A DNA stretch of 64,000 bases from an uncultured Bacteroidota bacterium (lineage in GTDB: Bacteria; Bacteroidota; Bacteroidia; Flavobacteriales; Flavobacteriaceae). The notes beneath the pieces are model-generated. The model searched no databases. It was given only the letters and a program-made list of their open reading frames with translations, and was not told the origin of the DNA. Below, piece by piece: positions 27,703 to 31,123 of the stretch (its first letter is position 1; each line of letters starts with the position of its first letter). The DNA lies in NCBI GenBank assembly GCA_902608795.1, contig CACLPI010000005.1, positions 1 to 64,000 on the forward strand. Direction: 5' to 3'. The translations under genes and the position numbers were made by a program.

Positions 27703-28605
27703 ATGCTTAAAATAGCCCATCATGCTCTTTATAATCATCCTTTAAAACAAAATCATAGATTTCCAATGATTAAGTATGAGCTAATCCCGGAACAGCTAAT
27801 TATGGAAAATACTTGTGTTGAAAATAATTTTTTCAAACCTGGTAATTTAAAAGATAGTATAATACTTCTCACTCATGAAAGATATTATTATGAGAAATTA
27901 AAAAATCAACAACTTGACAAGAAAGAAATCAGAGCAATCGGGTTTCCGATGTCAAAACAATTAATAGAAAGAGAAAAAATGATTGTACAAGGTACTTTAG
28001 AGTGTTCCCTTAATTCTCTAAAATACGGAATATCTATGAATATTGCAGGGGGAACACATCACGCCTTTACAAATCGTGCTGAAGCTTTTTGTATCCTAAA
28101 TGATCAGGCAATTGCTGCAAATTTTTTAATTAATCATAATTATTGCGATAAAATATTAATATTAGATTTAGATGTACATCAAGGTAATGGTACAGCTGAA
28201 ATATTCAGAGGAAATAAAAATGTATTTACAGTTTCATTTCATGGGGAAAAAAACTATCCTTTCAGAAAAGAAAAAAGTGATTATGATTATGGTTTTAATG
28301 ACAGAACATTAGATAAAGAATATTTAAATAAAATTAAATATGAAATACCAAGATTGGTAGAAAATTTTGAGCCAGACTTCATTTTTTATTTGTCCGGTGT
28401 GGATATTATTGAAAATGATAAGCTTGGAAGACTTTCAGTGTCAATTAATGGATGTAAAGAAAGAGATAAGTTTATATTTGATTATTGCAAAGCTAATTCA
28501 ATTCCAATACAAGTAAGTATGGGAGGTGGATATTCTCCAATTTTAAAAGACATAATAGAAGCCCATGCAAATACCTTTAGGTTAGCACAAGAAATTTACT
28601 TTTGA
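27703..28605 (+). CDS. Histone deacetylase family protein
   Basis: GGTHHAF, ILDLDVHQGNGTAEIF, SMGGGYS. Confidence 0.92.
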   Translation: MLKIAHHALYNHPLKQNHRFPMIKYELIPEQLIMENTCVENNFFKPGNLKDSIILLTHERYYYEKLKNQQLDKKEIRAIGFPMSKQLIEREKMIVQGTLECSLNSLKYGISMNIAGGTHHAFTNRAEAFCILNDQAIAANFLINHNYCDKILILDLDVHQGNGTAEIFRGNKNVFTVSFHGEKNYPFRKEKSDYDYGFNDRTLDKEYLNKIKYEIPRLVENFEPDFIFYLSGVDIIENDKLGRLSVSINGCKERDKFIFDYCKANSIPIQVSMGGGYSPILKDIIEAHANTFRLAQEIYF

Positions 28606-28625
28606 TTATCAACAACTTACTTGCC
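28602..28625 (+). repeat. 24-bp direct repeat, left copy (candidate att site)
   Basis: TTGATTATCAACAACTTACTTGCC, identical to 29723-29746. Confidence 0.9.
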
Positions 28626-28751
28626 GATGTGATAAGTCACCTCTTCCCTTCCCTTTCTGTTAAATCTATAATTTGTTAAAAGTGCTCACTTTTTGTTCAC
28701 TTCTAAAAACGTGGTAAACTGTGGTAAAACTGTTAGTATTAATTATTTTCT

Positions 28752-29672
28752 TCATTTATAAAGCTTAAAATCAACCTTATATTTATAGAAATCAATATTT
28801 GTTGTTACAGAAAGTGCTCTTTTTATTTTAAGGTCATCGTCAAAGCCAATTATAACCCCTTTTACATTTTGATTATATTCCGCCAAATCTTCTTTAACAA
28901 AACCCATATATCTTTGGATTTGACCAACAACGTTATCGCTGACTCTTCCCTTTTTTAGCTCGACTACTAAAAATGTTTTTTTGTCTTTACTTAAAGCTAA
29001 AATATCTATTGGACCTGTATCAGATGGAAATTGTTGACCCACTAATTCTCCATCTAACTCATATATGTTATAATCTTTTCCCAAAGAAGTGTTTTCCCAA
29101 TTTTTTACCAGAAAATCTTCAAGATGTCTTTCTAAAGCAAATTCAGAAGCGTTTTCAATTGTAGAATCATTTAAAGTGATAATTGATGATTTATTACCAC
29201 TTATTAAAATTTTTAGCTCCTCTTCGTATTTCGTCAAATCACAGGTTGTTAGTATCGAACCACTCGAATTACTTAAAGCTTCTGACATATCACTTCTTCT
29301 TATTGGAGTTTTATGCCATTTGACCCTCCTCCTGTGTGGTAGTATTTCACCCTCTGAATAAAAATAATTTGATTCAATATCGCCAACTAAATATTCACCT
29401 TTTCCATCAGGACAAAGAACCATATCCCCTTTCTTTAAATCTTGACATACTGTCCAAATAGAACCACAAGCTAATCCAGCTGCCACTTTGGACTTATCTG
29501 GCCTGTTTTGGAGAAAAATTGGACGATATCTCTCTTTAAAAGACTTAACATCATCAGATAAATGCATTGATAAGTCTTCATTAATGCCAAAGTCTACACC
29601 GATGAAATTGCCATTTAAACATTCATCTAAATATTTACTTTTAGCACCAGGCATAATTCTATTATACTTCAT
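28752..29672 (-). CDS. PD-(D/E)XK nuclease, endonuclease NucS/DUF91-like, with N-terminal PUA/EVE-like domain
   Basis: C-terminal GPIDILALSKDKKTFLVVELKKGRVSDNVVGQIQRYMGFV (D...ExK...QxxRY); N-terminal GSIWTVCQDLKKGDMVLCPDGKGEYLVGDIESNYFY...LPHRRRVKW. Confidence 0.8.
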   Translation of the reverse strand: MKYNRIMPGAKSKYLDECLNGNFIGVDFGINEDLSMHLSDDVKSFKERYRPIFLQNRPDKSKVAAGLACGSIWTVCQDLKKGDMVLCPDGKGEYLVGDIESNYFYSEGEILPHRRRVKWHKTPIRRSDMSEALSNSSGSILTTCDLTKYEEELKILISGNKSSIITLNDSTIENASEFALERHLEDFLVKNWENTSLGKDYNIYELDGELVGQQFPSDTGPIDILALSKDKKTFLVVELKKGRVSDNVVGQIQRYMGFVKEDLAEYNQNVKGVIIGFDDDLKIKRALSVTTNIDFYKYKVDFKLYK

Positions 29673-29722
29673 ACCTACAATTTACAATAATTAATTTTTT
29701 TTCATTATATTTACATAACCTA

Positions 29723-29746
29723 TTGATTATCAACAACTTACTTGCC
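29723..29746 (+). repeat. 24-bp direct repeat, right copy, overlapping mnmE stop
   Basis: TTGATTATCAACAACTTACTTGCC; mnmE C-terminal Gly-Lys-stop lies in it. Confidence 0.9.
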
Positions 29747-31123
29747 AATACAGAATTTAGAAAATATATTTCCAAGGACTTCGTCATTAGAGATTTCACC
29801 TGTTAATTCACCTAAAAAATAAATTGCCTGTTTTATGTCTATTGCCAATAAATCTGATGATATGTTTTTAGAAATTGAGATTTTTACTTTATGAATTTCT
29901 TCATGGGTCTTATTTAATAAATCATAATGTCTTGAATTTGTTATAGTCGAATTATCAATTTGGCTTTTTAAATTATTTATATAAATGCTTATTTCATTTG
30001 TTAAAGATTCAATATTTTGCTTGTTTTTTGCACTGATTTTGACGGGATTAAATTTATCTAAATCAGAAACAGATATATTGGACTTAACGTCATTTTTATT
30101 AAGAATTGTAATAAGTTTAGTATTTGAGAATTTATCTTCAATTTTATTAAGATAATTAACATAATAATTTATCTTGTTTTCATCTATAACTGAATAATCA
30201 ATCATAAAAACTATTACTTCGGATTCAGCCATTTTTTTAAATGTTCTCTCAATACCAATACTTTCTATTTCATCATCTGTTGATCTAATACCGGCTGTAT
30301 CAATAAACCTACAGTTAACACCATTTATAATGATTTGATCTTCAATAGTATCCCTGGTTGTACCAGCAATTGAGCTAACTATTGCACGATCTTCATTTAG
30401 TAATGCATTTAAAAGAGTTGATTTTCCAGTATTTGGCTCTCCTACAATAGCTATTGGAATTCCATTTTTAATAACATTTCCAGTTTTAAAAGAATCTATC
30501 AATTTCTTTAAACTTGAACTTATTTCATCTAATAGTTTATTTAATTCTTTCATATTTGCAAACTCTACATCTTCTTGAGAAAAATCAAGTTCTAGTTCAA
30601 TTAAGGAGGCAAAGTTTACTAACTGAGTTCTTAAGTCATTAATATCATTTTTAAAGCCACCTCTCATCTGATTCATAGCTAACTTATGAGAAGCTTCAGA
30701 GTTACTCGAAATTAAATCTGCCACCGACTCAGCTTGACTTAAATCCATTTTTCCGTTTAAGAAAGAGCGCATAGTAAACTCCCCTGGATTTGCCACTCTA
30801 CAGTCAAACTTTAACAAGAGTTGAATTATTGATTCCTGAATAAAAATGCTTCCATGACATGAAATCTCAACTAAATCTTCGCCAGTATATGATTTTGGAT
30901 TTCTAAAGACAGTAACTAAAACCTTGTCAATTGTCCTTTTGTTGTCCATTATATAACCCAACTGAACCTTATTTTCTTCAAGGTCAGCAAGTTTAATTTT
31001 TTCAATACCATCAAATATATTATCAACAATAGAAATACTCTCAGGACCTGAAATTCTAATAATAGAAATTGCTCCAATACCTGGTGGTGATGCTAATGCC
31101 AATATGTTATCATTCTTTACCAA
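29738..31123 (-). CDS. mnmE: tRNA uridine-5-carboxymethylaminomethyl(34) synthesis GTPase MnmE
   Basis: GEPNTGKSTLLNALL, AGTTRDTIED, DTAGIR, C-terminal FCIGK. Confidence 0.96.
   Translation of the reverse strand: MVKNDNILALASPPGIGAISIIRISGPESISIVDNIFDGIEKIKLADLEENKVQLGYIMDNKRTIDKVLVTVFRNPKSYTGEDLVEISCHGSIFIQESIIQLLLKFDCRVANPGEFTMRSFLNGKMDLSQAESVADLISSNSEASHKLAMNQMRGGFKNDINDLRTQLVNFASLIELELDFSQEDVEFANMKELNKLLDEISSSLKKLIDSFKTGNVIKNGIPIAIVGEPNTGKSTLLNALLNEDRAIVSSIAGTTRDTIEDQIIINGVNCRFIDTAGIRSTDDEIESIGIERTFKKMAESEVIVFMIDYSVIDENKINYYVNYLNKIEDKFSNTKLITILNKNDVKSNISVSDLDKFNPVKISAKNKQNIESLTNEISIYINNLKSQIDNSTITNSRHYDLLNKTHEEIHKVKISISKNISSDLLAIDIKQAIYFLGELTGEISNDEVLGNIFSKFCIGK

Follow-up and report, generated by a model that had tools for sequence, protein, structure and literature searches.

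Here, we describe a small insert at the 3' end of mnmE (trmE/thdF) in the genome of an uncultured member of the Flavobacteriaceae (GenBank assembly GCA_902608795.1, here G000). The insert lies at positions 28602-29746 of the window, a stretch of 64,000 nucleotides of contig CACLPI010000005.1, and is probably (about 0.75) a non-autonomous integrative cassette that resembles a cis-mobilizable element (CIME), uses the mnmE core known from the genomic island SGI1 and would be moved by a tyrosine recombinase acting in trans. Comparison with related species suggests that it belongs to a family of very small mobile cassettes at mnmE that have a promoter-like left end, carry no integrase and cross species boundaries. 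At this site the attachment (att) sequence is duplicated, ends are shared between inserts with differing cargo, and DNA bounded by the att core has moved horizontally. Much of the variable DNA of bacteria with very small genomes lacks a recognisable mobility gene, and it is unclear by what route they go on exchanging defence and surface genes. The unit described here is little longer than its single gene and can be delimited almost base by base into core, left end, open reading frame (ORF), right end and core. Recognising such units without an integrase makes 'orphan' single-gene insertions at the 3' ends of other genes searchable, and the recurrence of nucleases and restriction genes as cargo points to minimal hitchhiking cassettes as a vehicle by which defence genes can spread.

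Repeat-bracketed inserts downstream of mnmE

The original prediction, made from the letters of the window, was of a single-gene nuclease cassette bracketed by a 24-bp perfect direct repeat. The repeat, TTGATTATCAACAACTTACTTGCC, is exact at both places, 28602-28625 and 29723-29746, and no third copy within 3 mismatches was found in the window or the rest of the 45-contig genome (1.15 Mb, 65% complete). No other exact direct repeat of at least 18 bp is spaced 0.1-5 kb in the window, and about 5e-5 pairs of 24 bp at most 5 kb apart are expected by chance at the same base composition. The repeat unit is 1,121 bp long and holds one gene; the sole long ORF between the copies (28752-29672, minus strand, 306 aa) matches NucS_C and PDC-S02, which bears out the predicted interior of one nuclease gene without an integrase. 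The right copy indeed encodes the final Gly-Lys-stop of mnmE on the minus strand, and the left copy overlaps the stop codon, TGA, of the neighbouring histone-deacetylase-like (HDAC) gene. Both copies belong to an att structure that extends past the 24 bp they have in common: further upstream, the mnmE copy reads on as TTCTGTATT and the distal copy as TATCACATC, and the TTCTGTATT stretch is the SGI1-type core TTCTGTATYGGYAAGTAA. The parts of the locus are as follows.

29738..31123, minus strand: mnmE, the target gene, whose 3' end is the att site (Pfam TrmE_N, MMR_HSR1, MnmE_helical)
29738..29755, minus strand: putative attL core at the mnmE 3' end, TTCTGTATTGGCAAGTAA, the SGI1-type 18-bp core, displaced downstream in relatives
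29723..29746, minus strand: 24-bp repeat, mnmE-proximal copy
29673..29737, minus strand: conserved left end with the motifs TTGATAATCA and TTATGTAAATATAAT and a promoter-like AATTATTGTAAATTGTAGGT abutting the nuclease ATG, common to relatives with other cargo
28752..29672, minus strand: cargo, a predicted two-domain nuclease of 306 aa with a YTH/EVE-like N-terminal part and a NucS-like PD-(D/E)XK C-terminal part (PADLOC PDC-S02)
28626..28751, minus strand: putative cassette right end with AGTGAACA/AGTGAGCA repeats (about 28681-28703), partly like the right end in G017
28602..28625, minus strand: 24-bp repeat, distal copy (attR side), overlapping the HDAC stop codon
27703..28605, plus strand: HDAC gene, the convergent neighbour beyond the insert (Pfam Hist_deacetyl), which abuts mnmE in G020

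The 3' flanks of mnmE were compared in 31 species of two genera, all represented by incomplete genomes (55-87%): mnmE is assembled in 14 of the 21 genomes of the window's genus, and full-length in 17 of the 23 of a second genus. Genome sizes and the single-cell records suggest that both genera are small-genome Flavobacteriaceae, probably from marine plankton. Downstream of mnmE, gene content varies from species to species in the window's genus. At the junction of the HDAC gene and mnmE, where an empty site and alternative cargo had been anticipated, both occur among relatives. In G020 the HDAC gene directly abuts mnmE and there is no insert, and other relatives carry different genes: a MORN/protease-like gene in G010, a PDC-S18 nuclease in G007, a trehalose-phosphate-synthase-like gene plus a GH15 gene flanked by the 34-bp repeat ATTCTGTATCGGTAAGTAAGTTATTGATAATCAA in G017, and a HAD-like gene followed by the same OtsA-GH15 pair in G011. 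Vertical inheritance of the nuclease with both repeats in all relatives, raised at the outset as a possible refutation, does not describe the genus, since 20 of its 21 genomes lack the nuclease and only the window genome has it. The second genus has a matching hotspot. In the single-cell genome AG-900-K16 (locus L180), a nuclease 57% identical to that of the window lies 51 nt after mnmE, between a similar left end and a type IIG restriction-modification gene.

A displaced mnmE 3' end (TTYTGTATYGGNAARTRR, within 1 mismatch) occurs in direct orientation in seven of the 31 flanks (G017, G693, G704, G684, G690, G692 and G007) and in reverse orientation in none. Together with the window this makes eight bracketed inserts, with spacings of 822 to 4235 bp and unrelated cargo, and no integrase is evident among those of their ORFs that were scanned against Pfam. 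In the wider family, outside the window's genus, G172 is the only core match at mnmE among those whose loci were checked, and across the order the window alone has core plus left end among 398 evenly drawn genomes.

These inserts bear on the two forms that the original prediction had left side by side, a minimal cassette mobilised in trans and the deleted remnant of a larger element. The comparison supports that reading as a whole and favours the minimal cassette, because all eight inserts measure 0.8-4.2 kb, none has an evident integrase and the five of the second genus keep both ends. A remnant would go back to a larger, integrase-encoding island or prophage at mnmE, internally deleted down to its ends and one gene. 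Integrase-bearing SGI1-type islands do use the mnmE site in other bacteria, the window genome is 65% complete, and some flanks with a left end run for 10 kb without a right end (G011, G018). However, the differing cargo of the eight small inserts, the right ends of about 90 bp with unrelated genes immediately inside them in five, and the recent transfer of a unit of only about 1.3 kb (below) make such an origin unlikely; independent deletions would not end so regularly.

Shared ends and movement between species

One case of movement is a unit of 1,274 bp that G700 and G693 share at 99.5% identity, beginning at the att core and ending after one gene of 384 aa, while their mnmE DNA is 71.8% identical. 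In G700 this unit directly follows mnmE. In G693 a 4.2-kb nuclease-plus-restriction-modification cassette sits between mnmE and the unit, with core and left end duplicated. The 384-aa gene recurs, inverted and 98-99% identical, in the mnmE flank of G698. Similar contrasts are found elsewhere: the OtsA-GH15 pairs of G017 and G011 are 89.6% identical against 67.3% for mnmE DNA, and the nucleases of the window and of G696 (AG-904-E23) share 79% identity, whereas the MnmE proteins are 51% identical.

A left end of about 35-65 bp, non-coding and with a promoter-like sequence, is common to about 18 of the 31 flanks. In the window's genus, the first ~65 nt past mnmE are alike in G000, G010, G004, G011, G018 and, weakly, G013, and the sequence that follows differs. 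Left ends of G018 and G000 are 94% identical over 34 nt (mnmE DNA 69%), and those of G000 and G689, which belong to different genera, are 94% identical over 34 nt and 89% over 65 nt (mnmE DNA 62%); flanks without the left end have a mean identity of 50%. We rejected the idea that the left end is a native feature of mnmE, as it is missing from about 13 of the 31 flanks, including empty-like ones, is conserved across genera more strongly than mnmE and in G693 became duplicated along with the insertion. Its promoter half was also rejected as a cassette marker on its own, as it recurs ahead of unrelated genes.

At the other side, a right end of about 90 bp is 85-99% identical in five species of the second genus with unrelated cargo; mnmE DNA among them is 67-76% identical in all pairs except G684-G690 (92%). 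The motif AGTGTACKA occurs once or twice in four of these five right ends and is rare elsewhere in the collected loci. These motifs, and likewise the AGTGAACA/AGTGAGCA repeats of the window, may be arm sites of the recombinase. The second-genus right ends (L180 12083-12169; L284, L279, L283, L277) are also open in the mnmE frame, ending in ..NSQSKANKYTFCIGK or ..NFKNPLKSKTKDINSQSKANKYTFCIGK before the stop, and the att site could thus lie within the 3' end of another gene. In a further locus (L285, G696), the first ~160 bp after mnmE hold four AGTGTACKA repeats and lack the usual left end, possibly the scar of an earlier cassette.

Could ordinary gene turnover by homologous or illegitimate recombination at a permissive intergenic site, with no site-specific element, produce these flanks? 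The flanks of G002, G014, G010 and G006 do differ without any bracketing repeat, and promoter-like parts of the left end are also found at other places in these genomes. Yet the displaced mnmE ends are all direct and never reversed, both ends are conserved beyond mnmE itself, and the 99.5% identity starts at the core next to upstream mnmE DNA of 72%. We regard turnover of this kind as very improbable.

The point of exchange could be placed by inspection in G684 and G704, in which polymorphisms switch from host to cassette inside the TGTATYGG of the core. This position bears on whether the housekeeping recombinases XerC/XerD integrate the units, as they do IMEX or pdif modules, at a dif/cer-like sequence within the left end (ATAA, 8-bp spacer, TTATGTAAATA). 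In its favour, most of these genomes have hardly any tyrosine recombinases other than Xer-like ones, cer has a spacer of 8 bp, and the left end is similar to one arm of the genus dif, GTCTTATAATTTATATTATGTAAAAT, which was found by pattern. The likeness, however, does not extend to the spacing, which is 8 bp against 6 in dif, and the motif varies at TTATG (TTACG, TTGTG, TTAGA). The host-cassette switches and the 99.5% identity start in TGTATYGG, about 20 bp from the putative spacer, and distal copies have no XerD-like arm. While IMEX and pdif modules have a dif-like 28-bp site with a 6-8 bp spacer at both ends, only the left end is dif-like here and exchange maps elsewhere. Xer-mediated integration is thus quite unlikely. 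The dif-like sequence itself recurs with little change in at least six genomes of the window's genus (e.g., G013:C12:4598-4623).

The preferred reading, a CIME-like cassette moved in trans, has to be set against several observations that weigh against it. The right ends of G000 and G017 are only partially alike (68% over 72 nt), and neither resembles the second-genus right ends. In many flanks that have a left end, such as those of G010, G011 and G018, no right end could be detected, and G007 lacks the left end and has a displaced copy with 1 mismatch. No recombinase encoded at the mnmE site was found, and a search of the IMG/VR viral contigs for a helper returned no match to the 24-bp core, to either end, to the core joined with the left end or to the pair of iterons. 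In addition, the ends of the window insert differ at the exchange bases, reading TGTATTGG against CACATCGG at the right end, where the core is TGTATYGG. This mismatch is the weakest point in assigning the window's own cassette; either its right end has since changed or exchange occurred a few bases further on. Membership of the window cassette in the family is based on its left end, the 24-bp repeat and the partial right-end likeness to G017.

Proposed recombination in trans and relation to known systems

Most genomes of both genera encode only one or two Xer-like recombinases of about 300 aa (PF00589 search), and an integrase of about 346 aa is present in a few. Because no integrase is evident in the inserts and no helper was found in viral contigs, we infer that the cassettes are acted on in trans by an unseen tyrosine recombinase. 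Read in the orientation of mnmE, the window cassette would consist of attL (the mnmE 3' core), the promoter-like left end, the nuclease ORF, the right end with short repeats, and attR, which duplicates the mnmE 3' end. It would probably insert as a circle, by site-specific recombination between the cassette attP and the mnmE 3' end. Exchange inside TGTATYGG, as mapped in related cassettes, would rebuild the 3' end of mnmE from cassette DNA. The enzyme is probably a tyrosine integrase with an SGI1-like choice of target that is not encoded by the cassette, and successive cassettes can stack at mnmE, as in G693.

Units with att ends and without an integrase are known as CIMEs. The mnmE inserts have such ends, namely the 24-bp repeat in the window and displaced mnmE ends in seven relatives. 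Integrase or transfer genes are absent from the window insert, with its single ORF, and none is evident in the other inserts, some ORFs of which were left unscanned. At ssrA of Dehalococcoides, 15 islands without an integration module occur beside 16 with one, which includes a serine recombinase (PMC3146451). Like CIMEs and these module-less islands, the mnmE cassettes are flanked by attL/attR copies of the target 3' end next to conserved sequence, can stack in tandem, lack integration genes and vary in cargo between strains (PMC3146451). They differ from the ssrA islands in their promoter-like left end and their target, and while some ssrA islands carry the integration module, no integrase is evident in any mnmE insert, at unit sizes of 0.8-4.2 kb.

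With the SGI1 family the cassettes share the target, the last 18 bp of trmE/mnmE, and the link consists of this core and target. The core lies at 29738-29755 and displaced copies of it occur in relatives; the distal copy in the window matches only the 3' part of the core. The SGI1 island measures 42 kb, encodes an integrase and is mobilised by IncA/C plasmids, none of which applies to the window insert; in place of an integrase and a conserved backbone it has one nuclease gene. What sets the mnmE cassettes apart from CIMEs and SGI1 is the small size, the number of integrase-less cases at one site, the promoter-like left end and the sharing across genera.

Integron cassettes, including clusters lacking the integrase (CALIN), are also small promoter-driven or single-gene units that stack at one site, depend on a recombinase in trans and carry defence genes. 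In contrast to them, the recombination site here is linear and copies the end of a host gene, and an attC-like folded site was not recognised: the ends, a linear mnmE 3' copy plus conserved flanks, are not attC-like by inspection, and recombinases were searched by PF00589 with no search specific for IntI. Moreover, most integron cassettes have no promoter, unlike the mnmE cassettes with their promoter-like left end.

A second hotspot and the nuclease cargo

Single-gene units of 0.2-2.1 kb are also bracketed by repeats of the 3' end of the gene for the ~346-aa tyrosine recombinase (CATAGGCATATCTTCTTCTTTTAA; the protein ends ..LKEEDMPM), repeated downstream in G014, G012, G008 (in which the integrase is decayed), G696 and G698. 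The loci of this second hotspot are as follows.

L101, 6730-13361
L102, 8468-10866
L103, 10512-17242
L318, 6533-9677
L319, 7364-9381

The unit in G014 measures 217 bp and has one ORF of about 54 aa. In G696, a 983-bp unit holds the PDC-S02 nuclease that is 79% identical to that of the window (L319/L152), and in G698 a unit of 2,113 bp carries a protease-like gene that shares 64% identity over 210 aa with the mnmE cargo in G010. The two hotspots share kinds of cargo and design. Iterons are not enriched near the second hotspot and no sequence ties one recombinase to both, so nothing links its integrase to the mnmE cassettes. Tentatively, and at somewhat less than even odds, the two genera of small-genome Flavobacteriaceae might run a non-integron system of integrase-less units of about 1-4 kb that carry a promoter, have conserved ends and exchangeable cargo (often nuclease or restriction genes), insert at the 3' ends of mnmE and of a dedicated tyrosine-recombinase gene, form stacked arrays and depend on mobilisation in trans.

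Over its full length (residues 2-305 of 306), the window nuclease fits the PADLOC model PDC-S02 with E = 1e-146, and it matches Pfam NucS_C with E = 7e-7. D223, E238 and K240 are invariant across 42 homologues, so that the PD-(D/E)XK active site is kept. An AlphaFold model built from these homologues (pLDDT 85.6, pTM 0.51) was matched by Foldseek to NucS/EndoMS (7e-8), to MspJI (1e-3) and, within the limits of that pTM, to the YTH domains of 7yz8 (7e-4) and 9h35 (0.02) among the top matches listed. A full-length PDC-S02 match, a NucS-type PD-(D/E)XK domain and a predicted YTH/EVE-like N-terminal fold are shared with PDC-S02, NucS/EndoMS and MspJI; the cargo is not an ortholog of NucS, however, and its activity and substrate are predicted only. 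As a modified-base reader domain appears fused to a PD-(D/E)XK nuclease, modification-dependent restriction is predicted from the folds, and the cargo is probably a stand-alone modification-dependent (type IV) restriction enzyme, which may have an antiviral role.

Homologues of the nuclease are spread across many phyla, as expected for mobile defence genes. No match was found among phage records, plasmid-borne full-length relatives reach at most 55% identity, and the protein has a single match in the IMG/VR viral contigs, a 58% homologue adjoining a large restriction gene (L109). In one alphaproteobacterium (L192) the nuclease lies about 1 kb 5' of mnmE, which we judged to be coincidence. Homologues in Patescibacteria, Anaerolineae, Bacteroidaceae and the FCB group (L168, L200, L159 and L187) also have direct repeats 19-82 bp long on both sides within 1-2 kb.
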